Origin: Polynucleobacter sp. MG-27-Goln-C1
GTDB lineage: Bacteria; Pseudomonadota; Gammaproteobacteria; Burkholderiales; Burkholderiaceae
Reading direction: 5' to 3'
Assembly: GCF_018881905.1 (NCBI RefSeq)
Contig: NZ_JACVPM010000002.1
Location: 434,001 to 498,000, forward strand
Length of the DNA: 64,000 nucleotides
The notes under the pieces were generated by a model. That model had not been told where the DNA came from. It worked only from the letters and a program-made list of their open reading frames with translations, and made no database searches. How positions within the stretch are numbered: position 1 is the first letter of the stretch; each line of letters starts with the position of its first letter. The position numbers and the translations under genes were made by a program. Below are positions 3,787 through 37,094 of this stretch, one piece after another.

Positions 3787-6696
<2,910 letters not shown>

Positions 6697-6720
6697 TTGA
6701 CCTAAGCGTCGATTAGGGAA

Positions 6721-7650
6721 TTGCAACATAGCGCTCCTCCTCTTTTCAGACAAGGCGTTCCGGCTTTAGTCAAACTGATTGTCTGTCTATCGATCAGCAT
6801 CGCATTGATGTTGATCGATTTTCGCTTTAAAGCACTTGATCCGATTCGCAATAACGTTAATTGGATATTGCGCCCGCTAGAGTATGTGATGATGATGCCG
6901 CGCAATGCGTATGAAGCGACATCAGAATATTTCACCAGTCGCGGAACGCTGGATAAAGAAAATCAAGAAATGAAAGTACGTCAAGCAGAGCTCTCTTTGC
7001 TTGCCAACCAATCTGAATTTCTTCTTGTAGAAAATCAAAATCTACGTCAGCTAATGGATTTGCAAAAGCACGTTCCATTTAAAACATTGCCAGTAGAAAT
7101 TTTATTTAATCCACCCAATCCAATTTCTCAGCGCATTGTGATTAATCGTGGGAGCGACGACGGCCTGAAGCTGGGCAACCCCATTGCAAATGACTCCGGC
7201 ATCTTAGGCCAAGTAGTACGTATTTACGATCGCTCTGCAGAAGTCTCTTTACTAGAAGATCGTGACTTTGCGGTACCAGTTCAGGTAGCTCGCAATGGCT
7301 TAAGAGCAGCAGTATTTGGTGCGGGGCGCGGCAACCCACTTGAACTTCGCTATCTTCCCGTGGCGAGCGATTTAGAAGTGGGTGATGTACTGATTACCTC
7401 GGGCATCGATGGTATCTACCCGCCCGGCTTTGCAGTGGCAGTCATTAGCCGCATAGAACGTAATGCCGACAAAAACTCTTCAAATGTATTTTGCGTACCA
7501 GTTGCAGCAGTGAATCGCTACCGCCAAGCTTTAGCCCTGCTTTACGATCCACAGTGGGATGCAAAAGCATCCACTGCCACTAGCAAGCCTGGCGCACCCC
7601 TGACCAATACTCCAGGTCGCCGCCAAACTCGTGCGCGAGGCATGCAATGA
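6721..7650 (+). CDS. mreC: Rod shape-determining protein MreC
   Basis: MreC is a periplasmic scaffold that links MreB to the PBP2-RodA synthase. The 309-residue protein has a short cytoplasmic N-terminus (MQHSAPPLFRQG), one membrane segment at about residues 17-38, a coiled coil at about 65-105 (rich in Glu/Gln/Leu), and the twin beta-barrel domain with INRGSDDGLKLGNP and LITSGIDGIYPPGF. The start is TTG at 6721, preceded by AGGGAA; no ATG fits the family N-terminus. It ends in a basic tail with an ATGA overlap onto mreD. Confidence 0.95.
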   Translation: MQHSAPPLFRQGVPALVKLIVCLSISIALMLIDFRFKALDPIRNNVNWILRPLEYVMMMPRNAYEATSEYFTSRGTLDKENQEMKVRQAELSLLANQSEFLLVENQNLRQLMDLQKHVPFKTLPVEILFNPPNPISQRIVINRGSDDGLKLGNPIANDSGILGQVVRIYDRSAEVSLLEDRDFAVPVQVARNGLRAAVFGAGRGNPLELRYLPVASDLEVGDVLITSGIDGIYPPGFAVAVISRIERNADKNSSNVFCVPVAAVNRYRQALALLYDPQWDAKASTATSKPGAPLTNTPGRRQTRARGMQ

Positions 7651-8171
7651 TCGATTTTCAAAGCGGCTACATTCTGCGCCCGGTAAATCCGGTCTTTATT
7701 TATTTCAGCTTGTTTTGCGCTCTATTGCTCAATCTTCTGCCAATTGGTAATTACGGCTGGGTGCCAGACTGGCTCATTATTTGCATCGTGTTCTGGAATA
7801 TCCATCAGCATCGCTATGTCGGCGTCATCATCGCCTTCATTCTTGGTCTTTTGATGGATGTCCACAACTCTGACTTATTGGGCCTTCATGCATTTAGCTA
7901 CTCACTGGTAGCCTACCTTGCCATTTCTTGGCATCGCCGAATCATTGCCTTAAATGTTTTAACGCAAGCCCTGCATCTTTTGCCCATCTTCTTATTGGTT
8001 TCTTTGTTTCCAGTACTGGCCCATTGGCTATTAAGCGGTGAGGTGCATTGGTGGGCCTTAACTGGCGCTATTCAGGCTCTTATTGAGGCATTGCTGTGGC
8101 CCGTGGCAACACGCATCTTGTTGTCACCCCAACGTCGCCCCATCGACGTTGATCACAATCGTCCAATTTAG
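7647..8171 (+). CDS. mreD: Rod shape-determining membrane protein MreD
   Basis: This 174-residue polytopic membrane protein has about five hydrophobic segments and the MreD pattern PVNPVFIYFSLFCALLLNL near the N-terminus, followed by LGLLMDVHNSDLLGLHAF. MreD is part of the Rod complex and modulates MreC-PBP2 activation; it has no enzymatic motif. The start ATG at 7647 overlaps the mreC stop by four bases. The next gene, mrdA, begins 8 bp after its stop. Confidence 0.92.
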   Translation: MIDFQSGYILRPVNPVFIYFSLFCALLLNLLPIGNYGWVPDWLIICIVFWNIHQHRYVGVIIAFILGLLMDVHNSDLLGLHAFSYSLVAYLAISWHRRIIALNVLTQALHLLPIFLLVSLFPVLAHWLLSGEVHWWALTGAIQALIEALLWPVATRILLSPQRRPIDVDHNRPI

Positions 8172-8179
8172 AGAGCGGT

Positions 8180-10087
8180 ATGGTTTCGTTTAAAAAACCA
8201 GATCTCGATTCGTTTCAAGAGCGAATTCATATTGCGACTCTATTTGTCACCTTCTGCTTTTTATTATTAATTACACGATTGGTTTGGCTGCAGCTCGTGA
8301 GTCACGGCAAATATGCCTTATTAGCCGAGAATAACCGTATTGCCCTTGTACCCGCCCCAGCCAATCGGGGTCTGCTCATAGATCGCAATGGCATTGTGAT
8401 TGGTAGAAATTATTCAGCCTTGACCTTGGATGTGAACGCTGAGGAAGTTAAAGGCAATGTCGATGATCTTATCGACGAACTCTCTCAAATTGTGTTGATT
8501 TCCCCGCGCGATCGCCGAAATTTCAAGCGCTCCCTGGAAGATTCTCGAAAAATGGGCACTTTTCCACTCAGATCGATGCTCACCGAGGCTGAAACAGCCC
8601 GATTTATGGCCAATCGCTACCGATTCCCAGGCGTAGAGATCCGCGCCCGTAGTTTCCGAGAGTACCCATATAACGAGTTAGCCTCCCATTTAATTGGCTA
8701 TATCGGACGCGTTTCTCAAAGAGACAAAGAGAAAATGCAGGCGGAAATTGAGAACTCCAAGGCGGATGATCCAGATGCATTGCAGACTTCTTTTTTGCCA
8801 GGCATTCAGTATGTTGGCAAGATTGGCTTGGAGCAAAGTTATGAAACTGTTCTGCGTGGAGTGCCAGGCTACGATCAAGTAGAAATTACTGCGGGCGGTA
8901 AACCAGTACGCACACTCTCTAGCTCACCTTCAATACCCGGCAAAAATGTAGTGTTGTCAGTGGACATCAAGCTGCAATACTTAGTGGAACAACTCTACGG
9001 AAATTTCCGCGGTGCATTCGTAGCGATTGAACCTGAGACTGGTGACATCTTGGCATTTGTATCCAAGCCCAACTTTAATCCAAACGATTTCGTAGAGGGC
9101 ATTGATTCAGTGACGTGGAAAGAGTTGAATGACTCCCCGCAAAAGCCACTGTATAACCGCCCACTTAAAGGCATCTACCCACCGGGATCAACATATAAAC
9201 CATTTATGGCGCTTGCAGCTTTAGAAACCAAGAAGCGCACACCATCACAAACTATTTCAGATCCAGGTTATTTTGATTTTGGAAATCATACCTTCCGCGA
9301 TGACAAAAAAGGTGGGCACGGCATTGTTGATATGCAAAAGTCTATCGTTGAATCATGCGATACCTACTATTACATGTTGGCGCGCGATATGGGCGTCAAC
9401 ATGATGTATGACTTCATGAAACCATTTGGCTTTGGGCAAATTACCGGGATCGACTTGCAGGGTGAATCCAAAGGTGTTCTGCCATCTACCGAGTGGAAGA
9501 AAAATACTTTCAAAAAGCCAGAGCAGCAAAAATGGTATGAAGGCGAAACAATTTCTCTTGGTATTGGCCAAGGCTATAACGCATTCACTATTTTGCAGTT
9601 GGCACATGCTATGGCCAACATGGCAAACAATGGCATTGTGATGAAGCCACACTTAGTGAAGGCAATTGAAGATCCCTTCACAAGAAATCGCACCCTCACA
9701 ACACCTAAAGAAAGTTATCGCATCGATCTTGTTCCCGAAAACATTGAAGTCATTAAGAAAGCAATGGTTGAAGTTAACAATTCTGGAACCTCTGCCTCTG
9801 TGTTTAAAGGTACGGGCTATCAAGTGGGCGGCAAGACAGGAACAGCGCAAGTATTTAGCTTGAATTCGAAAGAGTACAAGCATGGAGCCACTGCAGAATT
9901 TTTACGAGACCATGCTTTATATATTGCTTTTGCTCCCGCAGAAAAACCAACCATCGTGATTGCCATGGTCGTTGAGAATGCAGGATTTGGTGCGCAACAT
10001 GCCGCACCAATTGCACGCAAAGCACTCGATTTTTATCTTGAAGGTAAATGGCCAAAGGAGATTCCTGAATGGAAAAGAGCGCCATAA
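8180..10087 (+). CDS. mrdA: Peptidoglycan D,D-transpeptidase PBP2
   Basis: PBP2 cross-links lateral-wall peptidoglycan as the partner of RodA. The 635-residue product has one N-terminal membrane anchor (about residues 17-38), the pedestal domain with NRGLLIDRNGIVIGRN, and the transpeptidase domain with all three penicillin-binding motifs: SxxK in PPGSTYKPF, SxD/N-like SCD in ESCDTYYY, and KTG in GGKTGTAQV. Length is normal for class B PBP2. Its 3' end overlaps rodA by 19 bp, consistent with co-translation of the polymerase/transpeptidase pair. Confidence 0.96.
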   Translation: MVSFKKPDLDSFQERIHIATLFVTFCFLLLITRLVWLQLVSHGKYALLAENNRIALVPAPANRGLLIDRNGIVIGRNYSALTLDVNAEEVKGNVDDLIDELSQIVLISPRDRRNFKRSLEDSRKMGTFPLRSMLTEAETARFMANRYRFPGVEIRARSFREYPYNELASHLIGYIGRVSQRDKEKMQAEIENSKADDPDALQTSFLPGIQYVGKIGLEQSYETVLRGVPGYDQVEITAGGKPVRTLSSSPSIPGKNVVLSVDIKLQYLVEQLYGNFRGAFVAIEPETGDILAFVSKPNFNPNDFVEGIDSVTWKELNDSPQKPLYNRPLKGIYPPGSTYKPFMALAALETKKRTPSQTISDPGYFDFGNHTFRDDKKGGHGIVDMQKSIVESCDTYYYMLARDMGVNMMYDFMKPFGFGQITGIDLQGESKGVLPSTEWKKNTFKKPEQQKWYEGETISLGIGQGYNAFTILQLAHAMANMANNGIVMKPHLVKAIEDPFTRNRTLTTPKESYRIDLVPENIEVIKKAMVEVNNSGTSASVFKGTGYQVGGKTGTAQVFSLNSKEYKHGATAEFLRDHALYIAFAPAEKPTIVIAMVVENAGFGAQHAAPIARKALDFYLEGKWPKEIPEWKRAP

Positions 10088-30435: not shown

Positions 30436-31188
30436 CTAACTCTTCAATAGCACCCTGATGTCTCGATAAATCTGCAAGCTTGCTATGAGCACAAGGGAGA
30501 GGGAGAGTGGCACTACCGCCATATAACCGACTGTTTTAAAACTAATCGCCCCGATAATTCCGCCAATCAAGAACATTCCGAAAATAAATAAATGGGTTTT
30601 TAACTTTTCCCGGTTCGCTCTGACATATCCACCTTCATTGGCTTGCGTCGATTTATTCCAATAAATTAACTTCCCCACCTCTATTCCAATATCCGTAATG
30701 ACACCCGTCATATGAGTTGTTCTAATTTCCGCTTTAGAGGCTTTAGTAACGATGGCATTTTGCAAGCCCATCACAAAGCACAGGAGAAGAGCAATCGCTG
30801 GAACAGTTAAGGGTAGATATAAGTTAAGGTTAGCGCCCACCAAGCCAAAGACCAATAACAGGGCGGCCTCTAGAAATAGTGGCAAGGCAAACTCGCTATG
30901 AATTTTTCTTCTATGGCCCCAATTAACAATGATGGCCGTGGTAGCTGCACCAAATAGAAATGAGAGCAAAAGTGAGATGCCGCCTAAAACTGAAATGAAG
31001 TCATTCAGAGCAAGGTCATCACCAATTGCAGAAATAATTCCACTCATATGAGATGTGTAACGCGAAATAGCCAAGAAACCGCCAGCATTTACAGCGCCCG
31101 CCACAAACGCCATATAGGCGCCCAATTGAATATTGGTTTTGGCGGATCGCTGTGCGCTTGTTAAGCGATGAATAAACTCAATTGGCAT
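30436..31188 (-). CDS. DUF1275 (YoaK-type) membrane protein
   Basis: The 250-residue protein has about six membrane helices and the DUF1275 signature: FVAGAVNAGGFLAISRYTSHMSG, followed later by FVMGLQNAIVTKASKAEIRTTHMTG. The family has no established function; transport has been proposed. It is preceded by a HAD gene 36 bp upstream on the same strand. Confidence 0.85.
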   Translation of the reverse strand: MPIEFIHRLTSAQRSAKTNIQLGAYMAFVAGAVNAGGFLAISRYTSHMSGIISAIGDDLALNDFISVLGGISLLLSFLFGAATTAIIVNWGHRRKIHSEFALPLFLEAALLLVFGLVGANLNLYLPLTVPAIALLLCFVMGLQNAIVTKASKAEIRTTHMTGVITDIGIEVGKLIYWNKSTQANEGGYVRANREKLKTHLFIFGMFLIGGIIGAISFKTVGYMAVVPLSLSLVLIASLQIYRDIRVLLKS

Positions 31189-31224
31189 TAAGCCTTCATT
31201 TTACGGCCCTAAACTTAACAAGCC

Positions 31225-31908
31225 CTAAATAACTTCCAAAACTTTACTCAACGAGCCGCCTTCATAGTCTGGCCTCTCACCAATTTCCTCAAAGGGGTGC
31301 CCCAGCCGATTAACCCAAAACACATCAAAACCAAACCACTTTGCTGCTAGCGCATCCCAAGCATTGCTCGATACAAAAAGAACTTCTTCTTTTTTAACTG
31401 GAAACGCTTTTAAAAGAAGTTCGTAGGCTTGAGGGGCGGTCTTAAATAATCGCACATCCTCAACGGTGACCACTTGATCCAAATAAGCAGTGAGGCCATT
31501 ACTCTCAACTACTGTCGCCAACATCTCTCTACTGCCATTAGACAAAATTGCTGTAGCAATGCCTTTATTTTTTATTGTCTTAAGAACATGCAGGCTATCT
31601 TCAAAACCAGTGAGCTTGGCATACTGATCCATCAGCTGCTTCTCGTGGTCAGGGCTGAGATTTAAGTTCATGCGCTTACATACGTAACGCAAGGACCGAA
31701 CTGTTAATTCCCAAAACGGAAGGTAGTACTTGCTACCGCCAGGATTAGGATCGCTCATGGTAACTAAGCGGGTGTACTCAATTTGGCGATCACGCCACAT
31801 TAGGGCGAAGACCTGGCCATTACCAGGAAATAAATCTTCTGCCAACTTTCCCATGGAATACACATCAAATAATGTTCCATAAGCATCAAAAGCGATGAGC
31901 TTATACAT
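31225..31908 (-). CDS. HAD-superfamily hydrolase, (S)-2-haloacid dehalogenase type
   Basis: The 227-residue protein matches type II haloacid dehalogenases: nucleophile Asp8 in LIAFDAYGTLFDVYSM, Arg in LMWRDRQIEYTRL, ATAILSNGSREML, and the C-terminal LFVSSNAWDALAAKWFGFDVFWVNR. Such enzymes hydrolyse 2-haloalkanoates, although many homologues act on other phosphorylated or halogenated substrates. It is immediately downstream of the oldest-looking tRNA-derived repeat (32036-32114), so it marks the distal edge of that array. Confidence 0.85.
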   Translation of the reverse strand: MYKLIAFDAYGTLFDVYSMGKLAEDLFPGNGQVFALMWRDRQIEYTRLVTMSDPNPGGSKYYLPFWELTVRSLRYVCKRMNLNLSPDHEKQLMDQYAKLTGFEDSLHVLKTIKNKGIATAILSNGSREMLATVVESNGLTAYLDQVVTVEDVRLFKTAPQAYELLLKAFPVKKEEVLFVSSNAWDALAAKWFGFDVFWVNRLGHPFEEIGERPDYEGGSLSKVLEVI

Positions 31909-32035
31909 ACAGCCTCCTTGTTATCAGCCTGTATTTGTATTGTCGTTTAAAACAATTGTTCTAGTGGGGCGGAACGCTTGCGTCACGTCAGATCCATTGA
32001 TTGTTAATCAATTTATAGCAGATCTCCGCTAATAC

Positions 32036-32114
32036 TAAAACCACTCGAAGGTGGTTTTAGTATTTCTTGGTGACTCTGGGCAGAATCAGCTATAGTCGTT
32101 TGCACCGAATCCTA
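32036..32114 (-). repeat. tRNA-Phe 3'-half + terminator repeat, copy D (after sodC)
   Basis: On the minus strand the sodC TAG stop (32114-32112) begins TAGGATTCGG, like the tRNA anticodon stem GAGGATT. Forty-seven bases later comes the CCA-like end at 32068 (GATTCTGCCCAGAGTCACCA), then the spacer AAGAAATACT and a hairpin AACCACC-TTCG-AGTGGTT (32036-32058). Over the terminal 22 nt it differs from tRNA-Phe at six positions. It is not an intact tRNA: D-arm and acceptor 5' half are absent. Confidence 0.75.
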
Positions 32115-32636
32115 CTTAATCAAGCCACATGCAATTCTTGGGCCAGAATTTCCGGCTGGTTGAGATTTATAGTCATCAGGATCACGATGAACAACAACGG
32201 ATCTTCCCAATATTCCAACCGGTCCATTATTAACAGCAAATCCACTTAACTTTGCCGAATAAACAGCATTGCCATTCGCATCTGATTTGATATTTGGCAT
32301 ATCGCCAGCATGATTTGAGCCGCTTCCTGGCATGCCGTGTGATTTTGTATCAGGGTTGAAATGACCCCCTGCACTAGTAGCATCCGGCGCGGAGCAATCT
32401 CCCTTTTCGTGAACATGAAACCCTTGTTCAGAATTTGGCTTCAAACCAGAAAAGTTTCCAGTCACTAATACATCATGCCCTTGCCATACAAAATTAACCG
32501 TTCCTTTTGCATTCGAGCCTGAACGCGAGTCTAGGGTAGCCGATGCTTTTTGACCAGTACCATGCTCCATTGACTGACAGGCTACCAAAGACAAAATGGA
32601 CGCGGCGCCAATTAATAGAGATACTTTTTTAATCAT
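32112..32636 (-). CDS. sodC: Cu/Zn superoxide dismutase (lipoprotein-type signal)
   Basis: SodC removes periplasmic superoxide. The 174-residue product starts MIKKVSLLIGAASILSLVAC, a lipobox-bearing signal peptide (Cys 20), after the Shine-Dalgarno AGGAGA. Metal ligands and disulfide residues are visible: GFHVHEKGDC, SAGGHFNPDTKSHG, NHAGDMPN, SVVVHRDPDDY and IACGLIK. An open frame extends to 32693 but lacks a signal. It is the fourth and most distal gene module behind tRNA-Phe; its TAG stop is the first base-triplet of tRNA-derived copy D. Confidence 0.93.
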   Translation of the reverse strand: MIKKVSLLIGAASILSLVACQSMEHGTGQKASATLDSRSGSNAKGTVNFVWQGHDVLVTGNFSGLKPNSEQGFHVHEKGDCSAPDATSAGGHFNPDTKSHGMPGSGSNHAGDMPNIKSDANGNAVYSAKLSGFAVNNGPVGILGRSVVVHRDPDDYKSQPAGNSGPRIACGLIK

Positions 32637-32756
32637 TATTCGTCTCCTGTGTTTATGTCTGATCAGAATAGATCTTTTATGGGTGCTCTTCAACGAAAAT
32701 AGAGACCATTCTCTAAGTAGTCTTATTAACTAAGCCCAAGAACTACGAAGCAAATG

Positions 32757-32825
32757 AAAAACCGCTCGAAGATGGTTTTGATGGCCCGGTAGCGAATCGA
32801 CTAGAGCCGGAGATGCGAAATCCTA
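32757..32825 (-). repeat. tRNA-Phe 3'-half + terminator repeat, copy C (after BLUF gene)
   Basis: On the minus strand the BLUF TAG stop opens TAGGATTTCGCATC. The T-loop-like GTCGATTCG follows, then CCGGGCCATCA (end 32779) and a degenerate hairpin AACCATC-TTCG-AGCGGTT. The 10-nt spacer present in the other copies is missing. Five of 22 terminal positions differ from tRNA-Phe. Confidence 0.7.
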
Positions 32826-33263
32826 ATCTTGATTACCTTTAGCTACTGAGCGCATGATTCTCAATAATTCATCATCATGGCTTGGAAGCCCATCAAGCAA
32901 ACCAACTAGATGCGGTACATCTTTAGCAATTTGATCGCCCCCATAAAACCTTAAGGCCCAATTAGGGAACAATCTTTGGTCAATCTCATCCAGCTCGATT
33001 TGATGCAGAACCTGATGACGAGAGTCTTTTTGTATTTTTTCCCAAATGAATAAAACATCTTTTCGCTTACCCTCAATAATCTGGGCAAAATGGCCATTCT
33101 CGAAGAACAGGGCTCCAGTAAGCTCATGCTCTAAATTCCACTTTCGAGCAACATCAAATAGATAGATTAAGCTTGAAAGGCCCATGTCATGAGTTGCTTT
33201 GCTGATATAACTCAGCTCAACCAATTGATTTGGATCATCAGCACTCACTTCTTCTCCTAGCAT
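32823..33263 (-). CDS. BLUF-domain blue-light photoreceptor, single domain
   Basis: The 146-residue protein is a stand-alone BLUF (FAD) domain. Key residues are Tyr19 (ELSYISKATHD), Asn43 (KWNLEHELTGALFF) and Gln61 (NGHFAQIIEGKR), which form the photoactive hydrogen-bond network. Trp102 is present (PNWALRFYG), but the position two residues on, usually Met in AppA-like proteins, is Leu104. No output domain is attached; short BLUF proteins signal by protein contact. It is the third module in the tRNA-Phe array and ends in a TAG stop at copy C. Confidence 0.88.
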   Translation of the reverse strand: MLGEEVSADDPNQLVELSYISKATHDMGLSSLIYLFDVARKWNLEHELTGALFFENGHFAQIIEGKRKDVLFIWEKIQKDSRHQVLHQIELDEIDQRLFPNWALRFYGGDQIAKDVPHLVGLLDGLPSHDDELLRIMRSVAKGNQD

Positions 33264-33345
33264 CTAAAAATACCTACGAAAACTAAAGTCAGTTTGTTCT
33301 TTTAGTTACCAAGCTTAAATGGGCAATAACCCTATCGGAGGGAAA

Positions 33346-33427
33346 TAAAAAGCCACCCGAAGGTGGTTTTGGTGTTTCTTGGTGGCCCCGGGCAGAATCG
33401 AACTAGGGGTCAAGGATGCTGACTCTA
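33346..33427 (-). repeat. tRNA-Phe 3'-half + terminator repeat, copy B (after MAPEG gene)
   Basis: On the minus strand it runs from the MAPEG TAG stop (TAGAGTCAGCATCCTTG) through the T-loop TTCGATTCTGCC to CCGGGGCCACCA (end 33380), the spacer AGAAACACC and the hairpin ACCACC-TTCG-GGTGGC. Two of 22 terminal positions differ from tRNA-Phe, and the CATCCTTG part aligns with the 3' side of its anticodon stem (ATCCTTG). Confidence 0.8.
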
Positions 33428-33823
33428 TGGAACCAGCATGAAAAGAGCCCATCCCAAGTTCAATACAGCCAATGTTATTAGCGTATAAAAAGTAAATTTC
33501 ATTCCAAGAATCCGCTTACCGAAATCTGGTGGTGGCACGTTAATCCCTTTGGCATGAATTAACCGACCAATAATTAAAGTGATGCCAGGTATGGCAACAA
33601 GCCACCAGGGAGCGCCGTTTAACTCCAGGCAAGCAATCAAAATTATTCCAAAAGGAACATACTCAGCAAAGTTCCCCTGGGCTCGAATCGCTCTCTCAAG
33701 GTCTTCGTGACCGCCACTTCCTAAGCCAACCTTATTCTTTCTTCTCAAGCCAATAACAGCAAAAGAGAGTTTTACAAAGATGGCGGTTAATGCAGAGGCG
33801 ATGATTGAGGTGACTAATAGCAT
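33425..33823 (-). CDS. MAPEG-family membrane protein
   Basis: The 132-residue protein has four membrane helices and the MAPEG pattern: N-terminal helix followed by RRKNKVGLGSGGHEDLERAIRAQGNFAEYVPFG (split here as residues about 28-60) with the conserved Glu, Arg and Asn of the glutathione site. Bacterial MAPEG proteins may be glutathione-dependent transferases or peroxidases. It is the second module behind tRNA-Phe and ends in TAG at copy B; the neighbouring module is also glutathione-linked. Confidence 0.88.
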   Translation of the reverse strand: MLLVTSIIASALTAIFVKLSFAVIGLRRKNKVGLGSGGHEDLERAIRAQGNFAEYVPFGIILIACLELNGAPWWLVAIPGITLIIGRLIHAKGINVPPPDFGKRILGMKFTFYTLITLAVLNLGWALFMLVP

Positions 33824-33865
33824 TTAGGGCTCCCGAGAGAATTACTACATATTAATCAGAAAAAG

Positions 33866-33945
33866 AAAAAACCACCCGAAGGTGGTTTTGGTGTTTCTTG
33901 GTGGCCCGAGGCGGAATCGACCGGAGCCTGGGATGCTTGACCCTA
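33866..33945 (-). repeat. tRNA-Phe 3'-half + terminator repeat, copy A (after GST gene)
   Basis: On the minus strand it runs from the GST TAG stop (TAGGGTCAAGCATCC) via GTCGATTCCGCC to TCGGGCCACCA (end 33899), then the spacer and hairpin identical to those behind tRNA-Phe. From the T-loop to the terminator, about 54 nt, I count one mismatch to the intact locus. The anticodon-arm part is more diverged. Confidence 0.85.
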
Positions 33946-34626
33946 TTTCTTGAGTCGTTCATTGCTGGGGAAGAGATTCTTTCTCGAATCCTCATCTACT
34001 TCTGTCTTAAAGGTGTATTTGGCCTTAATCGCCTCCACAGCCTGAGCGCTTGGCTTAGCATTAATCTCATCTAAAAGGCGTTTCACACTAGGTAGTTTTT
34101 CCCAGGCACCCTCGCCCAGTACAAATGGAATAACTCTTGCCCAGCCCCAAACAGACATATCCACAATGCTGTATTCGCTGAGCATATAGGGCTGATTAGA
34201 TAGGCGCTCTTCAATTAACAACCAGTGACGCCAGGCTTCGAAGTCATAGCGATTTACCGCATATTCTTTTGGCTCTGGGGCAAAGTGCTTAAAGTGAACG
34301 GCTTGTCCACAATAAGGGCCAATACCAGTCGCAACAAACATGAGCCACGAGTAAAGCTCGGCATGTGCCTGTGGCGTATTTGCTGGCATGAACTTGCCAA
34401 TCTTCTCGCCTAAGTAGAGCATGATGGCATTGCTATCAAATACCTTAATATCGCCATCGACTAAAGCAGGCGTCTTTCCATTAGGATTGATTGCTCTAAA
34501 TTCTGGTTTGTGCTGATCGCCCTTGCGAGTATCAGTCACAATAATTTCATAAGGCGTATTTGTCTCTTCTAAATATAAAGCCACTTTTGCTGGATTGGGT
34601 GATGGGTGATAGTAGAGCTTAAGCAT
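33943..34626 (-). CDS. Glutathione S-transferase family protein
   Basis: The 227-residue protein has the GST N-terminal thioredoxin fold (MLKLYYHPSPNPAKVALYLE, then INPNGKTPALVDGDIKVFDSNAIMLYLGEK with the cis-Pro and glutathione-binding Ser) and an all-helical C-terminal domain (about 90-205). The N-terminal catalytic Ser/Tyr region is HPSPNPAKV, as in beta/nu-like bacterial GSTs. It is the first module downstream of tRNA-Phe, transcribed in the same direction, and ends in a TAG stop at repeat copy A. Confidence 0.9.
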   Translation of the reverse strand: MLKLYYHPSPNPAKVALYLEETNTPYEIIVTDTRKGDQHKPEFRAINPNGKTPALVDGDIKVFDSNAIMLYLGEKIGKFMPANTPQAHAELYSWLMFVATGIGPYCGQAVHFKHFAPEPKEYAVNRYDFEAWRHWLLIEERLSNQPYMLSEYSIVDMSVWGWARVIPFVLGEGAWEKLPSVKRLLDEINAKPSAQAVEAIKAKYTFKTEVDEDSRKNLFPSNERLKK

Positions 34627-34670
34627 TTTTTATTCCTAGAAATAGGTCTTTTTAATAATACCCACAAATG

Positions 34671-34694
34671 AAAAAACCACCCGAAGGTGGTTTT
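34671..34694 (-). terminator. Intrinsic terminator of tRNA-Phe
   Basis: On the minus strand AAACCACC-TTCG-GGTGGTTTTTT follows the tRNA 3' end after 9 nt. This is the master copy of the hairpin repeated in copies A-D. Confidence 0.9.
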
Positions 34695-34703
34695 GGTGTT
34701 TCT

Positions 34704-34779
34704 TGGTGGCCCGGGGCGGAATCGAACCACCGACACAAGGATTTTCAATCCTCTGCTCTACCGACTGAGCTACCAGGCC
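34704..34779 (-). tRNA. tRNA-Phe (GAA)
   Basis: A complete 76-nt cloverleaf on the minus strand: acceptor GGCCTGG/CCGGGCC, D-arm GCTC..GAGC, anticodon arm GAGGA-TTGAAAA-TCCTT with anticodon GAA at 34746-34744, T-arm GGTGG-TTCGATT-CCGCC, discriminator A and encoded CCA. Its 3' half (34704-34753) plus the following terminator is the parent of the four degenerate repeats downstream. Only one intact tRNA gene is seen in the window. Confidence 0.97.
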
Positions 34780-34883: not shown

Positions 34884-37094
34884 CTAGCCCTGACTAGAGG
34901 GATCTACAGTTTTAGCTCTAGCAGCATGTAATTTTCTATAGCTATCAATCAAGCGATGATGCCTATCGAGGCCCTCTAGCTTCATACTGGTTGGAGTCAA
35001 TCCATAGAAGCGGATACTTCCTTCGACCGAGCCCATGACAGCATCCATTCTCTCGGCGCCAAACATTCTACGGAAGCTGACAATGTAATCATCCAACTCC
35101 AAATTATCATCCAGCAAAACCTCTAGCACCGCATTTAATGCCTGATAAAACAATTTTCGCTCGACTGTATTGTCGTTGTATTGGAGGAAAGCACCGACAA
35201 GCTCATGCGCCTCTTCAAATTGCTTTAAGGCAAGATGGATCAATAGCTTTAGTTCGAGAACTGTTAGCTGACCCCAAGGCGTGTTCTCATCAAATTCAAC
35301 ACCAATCAATGTAGCAATATCGCCGTACTCATCTAGCTCATTATTTTCTAAACGCTCGAGCAGCGCACTTAGGCCTGCATCATCTAAATTCGATAAATTC
35401 AAAATATCAGCACGGAATAACAGCGCTTTATTGGTGTTATCCCAAATCAAATCTTCGATTGGATAAATCTCAGAATAACCTGGTATTAAGATTCGGCAGG
35501 CAATCGCGCCTAACTGGTCATACACCGCAACGTATGACTCCTTGCCCAATGATTTAAGAATGCCGAATAAGGTGGCGGCTTCTTGAGCATTTGAGTTTTC
35601 TCCTTTTCCAGAAAAATCCCAATCAACAAAATCGTAATCTGACCTTGCACTGAAAAATCGCCACGACACAATACCGCTTGAATCGATAAAGTGCTCAACA
35701 AAATTATTTGGCTCGGTAACCGCTTCACTAGCAAAAGTGGGCGGGGGTAAATCATTCAAGCCATCCAAGCTTCGACCTTGCAATAGTTCCGTTAGACTTC
35801 GCTCTAGAGCGAGCTCTAGGCCGGGATGAGCTCCAAAGGATGCAAATACTCCACCCGTTCGTGGGTTCATCAAGGTAACGCACATGACCGGGTAGACGCC
35901 GCCTAATGATGCGTCCTTGACCAACACTGGAAAGCCTTGATCCTCAAGACTCTGAATGCCCTCCAGAATGCCAGGGTATCTGGCAAGCACTTCTTGCGGT
36001 ACATCAGGCAAAGCAATTTCGCCTTCAATAATTTCTCGCTTCACTGCCCGCTCGAAAATCTCTGATAAGCATTGCACTTGAGCCTCAGCTAAGGTGTTGC
36101 CAGCACTCATGCCATTGCTAACATAAAGATTCTCAATCAGGCTCGATGGAAAATAAACCGTCTCGCCATCGGACTGACGAACATATGGCAAAGAACAAAT
36201 CCCGCGCTCTACATTACCGGAATTAGTATCGATTAAATGTGAGCCACGCAGTTCTCCATCAGAATTAAAAACCTTTAGGCAATACTCATCAAGAATTTCT
36301 GGAGGGAGTGCATCTTTCGGTCCTGGCTTAAACCAGCGCTCATTCGGGTAATGAACAAATGCGCCATTAGCAATATCTTCGCCCCAGAATACCCCAGCGT
36401 AAAAGTGATTGTTGCTGAGTCGTTCGATGTACTCACCCAGCGCTGAGGCCAAAGCACTTTCCTTTGTAGAGCCTTTACCATTTGTAAAGCACATTGGCGA
36501 GTGCGCATCGCGAATATGTAAAGACCACACATTGGGAATCAGATTGCGCCATGAGGCGATTTCAATCTTGATTCCTAGATTGGCCAACACGCTGGACATA
36601 TTGGCAATGGTTTGCTCTAGCGGTAAATCCTTTCCTGCAATATAAGTGCACGCATCAGAGGCTGGCTTTAGCGTCAGCAAAGTCTGCGCATCAGCATCTA
36701 AATTCTTGACCTCTTCGATCACAAACTCGGGTCCAGCTTGAACGACTTTTTTTACAGTGCAGCGCTCAATCGAGCGCAATATGCCCTGACGATCATTCGC
36801 GGAGATATCTTCTGGCAATTCAACTTGAATTTTAAAAATCTGTTGATAGCGATTCTCTGGATCAACAATGTTATTTTGCGAAAGGCGAATATTCTCAGTT
36901 GAAATATTGCGTGTATCGCAATATAGCTTTACAAAATATGCCGCGCATAAAGCCGATGAGGCTAGAAAGTAATCAAAAGGTCCGGGGGCTGACCCGTCTC
37001 CCTTATACCGAATGGGCTGATCAGCAATCACCGTGAAGTCGTCGAACTTGGCCTCAAGACGCAACTTATCGAGAAAGTTAACCTTTATTTCCAT
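34884..37094 (-). CDS. OsmC-YcaO fusion protein
   Basis: The 736-residue protein joins two domains. Residues about 1-140 are OsmC-like (GDGSAPGPFDYFLASSALCAA with the reactive Cys, and CTVKKVVQAGPEF). Residues about 165-560 are YcaO-like and close in pattern to the E. coli YcaO protein: CFTNGKGSTKESALASALGE, YIERLSNNHF, VQCLSEIFERAVKREI, SLGGVYPVMCV, FGAHPGLELALERSLTEL. A C-terminal helical region follows. YcaO domains use ATP to activate amides and E. coli YcaO assists RimO-dependent ribosomal protein S12 modification; the OsmC thiol domain may supply redox or sulfur chemistry (inference). No peptide-natural-product genes are adjacent. Confidence 0.88.
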   Translation of the reverse strand: MEIKVNFLDKLRLEAKFDDFTVIADQPIRYKGDGSAPGPFDYFLASSALCAAYFVKLYCDTRNISTENIRLSQNNIVDPENRYQQIFKIQVELPEDISANDRQGILRSIERCTVKKVVQAGPEFVIEEVKNLDADAQTLLTLKPASDACTYIAGKDLPLEQTIANMSSVLANLGIKIEIASWRNLIPNVWSLHIRDAHSPMCFTNGKGSTKESALASALGEYIERLSNNHFYAGVFWGEDIANGAFVHYPNERWFKPGPKDALPPEILDEYCLKVFNSDGELRGSHLIDTNSGNVERGICSLPYVRQSDGETVYFPSSLIENLYVSNGMSAGNTLAEAQVQCLSEIFERAVKREIIEGEIALPDVPQEVLARYPGILEGIQSLEDQGFPVLVKDASLGGVYPVMCVTLMNPRTGGVFASFGAHPGLELALERSLTELLQGRSLDGLNDLPPPTFASEAVTEPNNFVEHFIDSSGIVSWRFFSARSDYDFVDWDFSGKGENSNAQEAATLFGILKSLGKESYVAVYDQLGAIACRILIPGYSEIYPIEDLIWDNTNKALLFRADILNLSNLDDAGLSALLERLENNELDEYGDIATLIGVEFDENTPWGQLTVLELKLLIHLALKQFEEAHELVGAFLQYNDNTVERKLFYQALNAVLEVLLDDNLELDDYIVSFRRMFGAERMDAVMGSVEGSIRFYGLTPTSMKLEGLDRHHRLIDSYRKLHAARAKTVDPSSQG

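Follow-up and report, generated by a model that had tools for sequence, protein, structure and literature searches.

What could set single genes one behind another downstream of a tRNA gene, each closed by a copy of that tRNA's own 3' end? This question is raised by a stretch of 64,000 nucleotides from Polynucleobacter sp. MG-27-Goln-C1 (contig NZ_JACVPM010000002.1, positions 434,001 to 498,000), here called the window. In the window, tRNA-Phe(GAA) is followed by the genes for a glutathione S-transferase (GST), a MAPEG-family protein, a BLUF domain protein and the superoxide dismutase SodC, all on the minus strand, and after each gene a repeat of the tRNA 3' end and its terminator is present. 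Comparison of genomes shows that what different species have in common is the single unit, and the cassettes appear to move individually between them via a recombination point in the T-loop of the tRNA. The locus is probably a tRNA-anchored gene-cassette array whose cassettes are moved by a site-specific recombinase supplied in trans.

The repeat that closes each unit has two parts. The tRNA-derived part runs from the T-loop through CCA, a spacer and the terminator, and it is preceded by a conserved, mostly non-tRNA left arm. In an alignment of 85 partial copies (including three copies of tRNA-Lys and six of the anticodon type described below), tRNA-Phe is matched at 0.84-0.98 over positions 55-76. 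Of the 20 positions 33-52, seven (38-42, 44 and 48) match at 0.75-0.88 and the remaining 13 at 0.07-0.53. The earlier note had described a degenerate tRNA copy from the anticodon stem to CCA, and this holds from the T-loop to CCA but not before the T-loop, where the non-tRNA arm lies. The arm occupies positions 28-53, with a consensus of about TAGGATYAGACATCCTCGGCCCTGG, and the copies are closer to one another than to the tRNA. Its start is sharp (tRNA match 0.07 at position 27 and 0.81 at position 28), its best-conserved piece, ATCCT, is held in common with the anticodon stem, and it retains the anticodon-stem-like halves AGGAT..ATCCT. The arm is kept across 235 aligned sites (23 of the 258 distinct sites were omitted from this position table), in modules carrying 412 open reading frames (ORFs) of at least 90 amino acids (aa) that fall into 177 gene clusters. 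A single T at the junction splits the sites into sub-classes of 179 and 62 of the 258. In all four window genes the left arm starts at the TAG stop codon of the gene. More widely, 45 of 208 modules have a last plus-strand ORF that ends 22 nt ahead of the core, a position that corresponds to the arm's TAG; this is the largest class in a count made from ORF ends.

The survey of related genomes covered 51 stretches, taken from 49 genomes that were selected for having hits (47 belong to the genus, and G054 and G319 are also counted), and ORFs were called mechanically in them. The extra copies of the site that the earlier note had proposed to look for were found there: the 338 site hits comprise 259 of the cassette type, 38 of the anticodon type and 41 intact tRNAs. 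The parts of the flanking sites were tested for travelling with the gene in 284 homologous pairs from 38 clusters, using 200 permutations. At the closing site, linkage to the gene is seen for the left arm (z +12.2 and +5.7) and not for the terminator (z -1.6). At the opening site the picture is reversed, with z -0.8 and -0.6 for the left arm and +6.1 for the terminator. This places the switch at about -3 to +24 relative to the T-loop, in the segment common to cassette and tRNA. The left arm thus accompanies the gene ahead of it and the terminator accompanies the gene that follows, so the exchange must fall between these two parts. The mobile unit therefore consists of spacer, terminator, gene and left arm, as excision between two neighbouring sites would yield. 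A tRNA half as such had earlier been taken for the recombination site; alignment and linkage point instead to an exchange in the T-loop and acceptor part, by which the conserved arm becomes joined to the 3' end of the tRNA.

The same pattern is evidence against an exchange along the whole repeat and against an mRNA intermediate, with which the downstream terminator would be expected to travel. RNA-templated (retro) insertion of the gene's mRNA with a tRNA-like 3' structure, a route left open in the earlier note, is therefore disfavoured and in our judgement scarcely credible, given that such an mRNA should hold the downstream and not the upstream terminator and that the reverse linkage is observed. 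What speaks for it is that the consensus site folds into two hairpins (z -2.28, with 5 of 200 shuffles doing equally well); of the two natural sites folded, one equals the consensus and the other gives z -1.24. Among the 12 hairpin pairs, just -1/+11 (5/1000 shuffles) and marginally -2/+12 (50/1000) covary above shuffles and the other ten do not, in a test of low power because the tRNA-derived half varies little. Structure was also considered as the cause of left-arm conservation and was not adopted, as the folding is good but covariation is scarce.

In the proposed mechanism, a recombinase would excise a circle between two neighbouring sites, and such circles would insert at the T-loop of tRNA-Phe. 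Each insertion would rebuild the tRNA 3' end and would give the tRNA the terminator of the newcomer, which would shift the older cassettes outward. The recombinase would act in trans and would most likely be a tyrosine recombinase of tRNA-Phe-targeting islands or of other visiting elements. All 338 site hits lie on a single strand within each locus, and no site was found 5' of the tRNA in 41 arrays, over the 0.2-12 kb of sequence on that side. Mismatches in the tRNA part increase, unevenly, with the array index counted from the tRNA (Spearman 0.24, p 1.6e-4). The modules closed by cassette-type sites (n=254) have a median length of 975 bp and a maximum of 9.5 kb, and 140 of them hold exactly one ORF. 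In the anticodon-type sites the match to the tRNA already begins at the anticodon arm, and the 33 modules that end in them have a median length of 3.9 kb and a maximum of 18 kb.

Movement between species was followed by comparing whole modules, all comparisons being between species. A whole-module homologue in another genome was found for 154 of 287 modules, giving 333 pairs in 44 clusters. Only 11 shared-neighbour cases are listed among these pairs, with some adjacencies counted from both sides, and the context differs in 322 of the 333 if a missing neighbour or the tRNA itself counts as different. These numbers support the earlier proposal of serial, integron-like capture of mostly one-gene cassettes with gain and loss module by module. 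The largest module cluster carries a BrnT toxin gene and is spread over 17 genomes (one being G319) at varied places in the array. Cassettes were also compared with the core gene ntrX, a single gene taken from 20 genomes. Of the 87 pairs that could be compared, 83 are more alike in the cassette than in ntrX, 70 of them by more than 5 points, and one is less alike in the cassette by more than 5 points. In the pair G012 and G009 the cassette is 100% identical and ntrX 74%. Among the pairs listed, the 12 most extreme have cassette identities of 94.5-100% against 73.4-78.2% for ntrX. The possibility raised earlier that the system is extinct is thus unlikely.

Homologous recombination by RecA after natural transformation could swap cassettes via the 26-58 bp common to the repeats, without any site-specific enzyme. 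Random site pairs agree at about 0.90 over the tRNA part, the length of which is close to the lower limit for homologous recombination, and arrays are present in genomes in which no array-linked recombinase was found, both of which fit this explanation. It predicts, however, that crossovers should fall in terminators too, and the downstream terminator is unlinked to the gene. The sharing of units singly also counts against it, and it leaves unexplained why an arm unlike the tRNA is conserved across modules with so many gene clusters. We consider homologous recombination unlikely as the agent, although it is the main rival to an enzyme of the islands, which is the leading candidate either itself or through a relative.

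The recombinase was sought among ORFs of at least 150 aa as relatives of XerC or of a 188-aa enzyme of the larger tRNA-Phe islands. Twelve such ORFs were obtained, eight in modules closed by anticodon-type sites and four outside the arrays. The 188-aa enzyme (G013:C1:2127071-2127634 and relatives; G000:C2:254025-254600) belongs to a family of catalytic-domain-only tyrosine recombinases that is present at E <= 1e-10 in 33 of 61 genus genomes, with up to five matches each; its NCBIfam matches, all under the cut-off, include XerA/C/D and tyrosine-type DNA invertases. It is possible, if rather doubtful, that this very enzyme is the cassette recombinase and acts in trans on island and cassette sites alike. 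No other family was found within these arrays by the recombinase search, which placed 8 of its 12 ORFs there, and the left arm has the AGGAT..ATCCT halves, where linkage already drops. At the island closing sites, however, the likeness to the tRNA starts at the anticodon arm, so the islands cross over elsewhere than the cassettes, and no relative at E <= 1e-10 is present in G004, G023, G029, G033 and G035, despite their cassette-type sites. 

The host proteins XerC and XerD could in principle carry out the exchange, as they do for IMEX elements at dif. Genome G035 has an array and, among the matches listed, two PF00589 genes alone, which are taken for XerC and XerD judging by score and position. 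The core GG-TTCGATT-CCGCC is not known to resemble dif, and this explanation seems very improbable. A serine recombinase (PF00239) was found in 3 of 12 array genomes and not in the other nine, and a universal role for it was rejected. The Pfam results for the 177 cassette proteins exclude no recombinase, because the 25 commonest families are shown per scan. We infer a recombinase that works in trans and is frequently absent.

Several observations weigh against a trans-acting, site-specific recombinase working on one-gene units. The 254 cassette-closed modules contain no XerC or 188-aa relative among ORFs of at least 150 aa, and no recombinase is tied to the sites. Genome G035 has one cassette-type site with its two PF00589 matches, and G023 has five such sites with three PF00589 among the matches listed and no 188-aa relative. 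The tRNA part from +6 to +23 is without linkage signal either way and the core from -3 to +5 is weak on both sides (z +1.4 and +2.4), so that the crossover is bracketed to the segment and not to a single base. In addition, the linked fraction at the closing site drops inside the left arm, from 0.73 at the gene end to 0.55 at -26..-17 and 0.29 at -16..-4, a fall that could stem from faster change in the left arm or from a further point of exchange close to the anticodon-like loop. Of the cassette-closed modules, 114 do not have exactly one ORF, and the largest ORF is reversed in 40 of 184 short modules. A 6.4-kb cassette stretch of G007 matched no phage record; in plasmids it matched 92 records at 60-80% identity, and the eight listed cover 2-3% of the query. 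Neither a circle nor a transfer has been observed.

Integrons consist of an integrase gene (intI), an attachment site (attI) and cassettes with attC sites, whose conserved boxes are RYYYAAC and GTTRRRY. Like integrons, the arrays are built of mostly one-gene units in direct orientation behind a fixed anchor, with an order that is shuffled among genomes and one recombination site per unit that starts at about the gene's stop codon. Unlike integrons, they are anchored at the T-loop of tRNA-Phe, have a terminator in each unit and have no integrase found beside the array, and their site gave no clear covariation in the low-power test above and is without attC-type boxes in its consensus (by eye, over the 235 aligned sites). 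An intI-type integrase was not found as a XerC or 188-aa relative in the 254 modules, the four ORFs outside the arrays being unexamined for intI. Other islands behind tRNA genes share the directly repeated, displaced 3' fragments of a tRNA that itself stands intact ahead of them; those with their own integrase differ from the cassettes, with 0 such ORFs in 254 cassette-closed modules against eight in the 33 closed by anticodon-type sites.

In architecture, the arrays are closest to the ssrA islands of Dehalococcoides and the additive islands at tRNA-Lys of Methylopumilus. The Dehalococcoides islands also stand in tandem behind an RNA gene, with direct 3'-end repeats, insertion at the T-loop and a conserved non-ssrA motif just ahead of the repeat, and sixteen of them have a serine-recombinase integration module (DsiB) (PMC3146451). 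The present units differ from them in being mostly single genes, in their tRNA-Phe anchor and in the lack of a serine resolvase in 9 of 12 array genomes. The Methylopumilus additive island fGI-2 at tRNA-Lys is also found in streamlined freshwater bacteria and has recurrent tRNA 3'-end repeats, with units from 330 bp and of 1 to 63 genes; its reported repeats comprise the final 20 nt of the tRNA, unlike the cassette sites, and the section consulted mentions neither a partner arm nor a unit boundary or a crossover (PMC10872708). The Prochlorococcus tycheposons are likewise tRNA-seeded modular cargo islands of planktonic bacteria, but measure 4-200 kb and carry a tyrosine recombinase (PMC10872708), as opposed to a median of about 1 kb and no recombinase found in cassette-type units. 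No paper on cassettes at the tRNA-Phe of Polynucleobacter was among the matches listed in the open-licence PMC literature, and the main text of PMC5644125 is without the words 'tRNA' or 'integrase'. As far as these searches show, the mostly single-gene units, the composite site at about the stop codon, the terminator in each unit and the linkage evidence of unit-wise exchange between species are new.

Whether this is a second, independently evolved integron-like system is a question on which we see the chances as evenly balanced. Such a system would comprise active one-gene shuffling throughout the genus, the T-loop in the role of attI, a site composed of left arm and tRNA 3' end, a shared recombinase in trans and a process that fuses new genes with the left arm precisely at their stop codon. 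The arrays suggest that planktonic bacteria with small (about 2 Mb) genomes pass single-gene cassettes from one species to another without using an integron. They also offer an independent system for asking how gene cassettes arise, a long-standing question in integrons; the site in these arrays likewise tends to start at the stop codon. In practice, they provide an annotation rule for accessory genes behind tRNA-Phe in Polynucleobacter.

In the window itself, the array and its coordinates as first described proved correct, with the tRNA identified by ARAGORN, four repeats supported by a hidden Markov model (HMM) of the site and the four genes confirmed by Pfam. The features are given from the tRNA outward, all on the minus strand. 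The intact tRNA-Phe(GAA) (34704..34779) is the anchor and is comparable to attI or attB, its segment from the T-loop to CCA being the place of the crossover suggested by linkage. The type A terminator hairpin 3' of it (34667..34694) would, on the proposed model, have been brought by the newest cassette, as the terminator is linked to the following gene. Cassette 1 encodes the GST (33943..34626; GST_N, 7.9e-17) and is closed by site 1 (33861..33945; HMM 48.9 bits and alignment), which consists of the TAG stop, left arm, T-loop, acceptor and CCA, spacer and terminator. It is followed by cassette 2 with the MAPEG gene (33425..33823; MAPEG, 1.2e-19) and site 2 (33342..33427; 36.7 bits and alignment), and by cassette 3 with the BLUF gene (32823..33263; BLUF, 9e-23) and site 3 (32757..32825; 17.5 bits and alignment), which is degraded and has lost most of the spacer. 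Cassette 4 encodes the Cu/Zn superoxide dismutase SodC (32112..32639; Sod_Cu, 5e-42), and its site 4 (32033..32114; 19.0 bits, 75% repeat, alignment) has the most diverged left arm of the four. The module spacings are 805, 519, 598-601 and about 714 bp.

The first HMM finds all four window sites and was built partly from three of them; the second, at E <= 0.01, detects three of the four. The site that closes sodC is absent from the later genus counts because the second, stricter HMM misses that copy. A blastn search of the own genome with tRNA-Phe and terminator returned three of the four repeats (E 4e-22, 1e-19 and 6e-11) and missed the copy after the BLUF gene, which is the most degraded. 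The diverged sites of this genome do not match the strict cassette-site patterns, and their assignment rests on HMM and alignment.

The window genes were also found in other loci. The GST, 98.7% identical in amino acids, is closed by a site in one (G033) of four other matching loci and has an opening site only in the remaining three. Of ten other loci matching the MAPEG gene, one is closed (G125), one is opened (L229) and eight have neither site. BLUF homologues of 83-92% identity in G033, G117 and G132 have no detected closing site, and distant ones (37-39%) in G120, G018 and G027 are flanked by two sites. For sodC, three (G077, G030 and L217) of four other matching loci have a gene of 94-95% identity with a site 4 nt past it. 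Past the last recognisable site of the window lie genes for a HAD hydrolase (31225-31908) and a DUF1275 protein (30436-31188), together at 30436..31908 on the minus strand. The DUF1275 gene sits between two sites in G034. These two genes are possibly older array members or the distal flank, and the array may once have extended as far as them. Elsewhere the MAPEG and HAD genes are mostly without an adjoining site, and they may belong to the distal flank.

Within the genus, all 61 relatives were matched in an initial search, the query of which contains the tRNA itself. With a cassette-site pattern allowing at most three mismatches, 117 of 186 genus genomes were matched, and 62 of 186 with a form one base longer. 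In an order-level sample of 300 genomes the first pattern matched five, namely three of the genus together with G054 and G319; the own genome is part of this sample and was unmatched. Named genomes with a site-pattern match gave 91 stretches, and the 80 listed are mostly titled Polynucleobacter, beta-proteobacterium or Burkholderiaceae. The off-genus titles among them (Thermoflexus, Ferrovum, Rhodobacteraceae, Nocardiaceae, Alcaligenaceae and Bordetella) all belong to contigs of metagenome-assembled genomes (MAGs). L134 (Rhodobacteraceae) is 96% identical to genus arrays, L124, L125, L157 and L197 (Thermoflexus, Ferrovum, Alcaligenaceae and Bordetella) have HMM sites and 74-88% identity to arrays, and one of the six is without an HMM site. 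These contigs are likely mis-binned or mis-named, and with G054 and G319 equally doubtful, a spread beyond Polynucleobacter is not claimed. Viral contigs gave no exact match to the two site patterns. Proteins related to the BrnT-like one (45-61% identity) are encoded on five viral contigs.

Some further features were noted. An OsmC-YcaO fusion gene lies directly 5' of tRNA-Phe in the window (34884-37094); in several relatives it stands between ntrX and the tRNA, and in others ntrX adjoins the tRNA. The terminators at the sites are of three types, judged by eye, and the terminator AAAACCACCTTCGGGTGGTTTT (window 33861-33890) is repeated, whole or in part, elsewhere in the genome. In two stretches without tRNA-Phe, a gene is present with its closing site (L212 7716-8430 in G009 and L221 8160-8640 in G135), as though inserted at secondary sites beside other terminators. 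The same genome also holds a second tandem array, at tRNA-Lys(TTT) (L055, G000:C3:85000-100000, at 4957-9959), in which three displaced 3' copies come with terminators and the modules hold from one to several genes. This array looks to be of the conventional type, because its matches begin at the anticodon arm.

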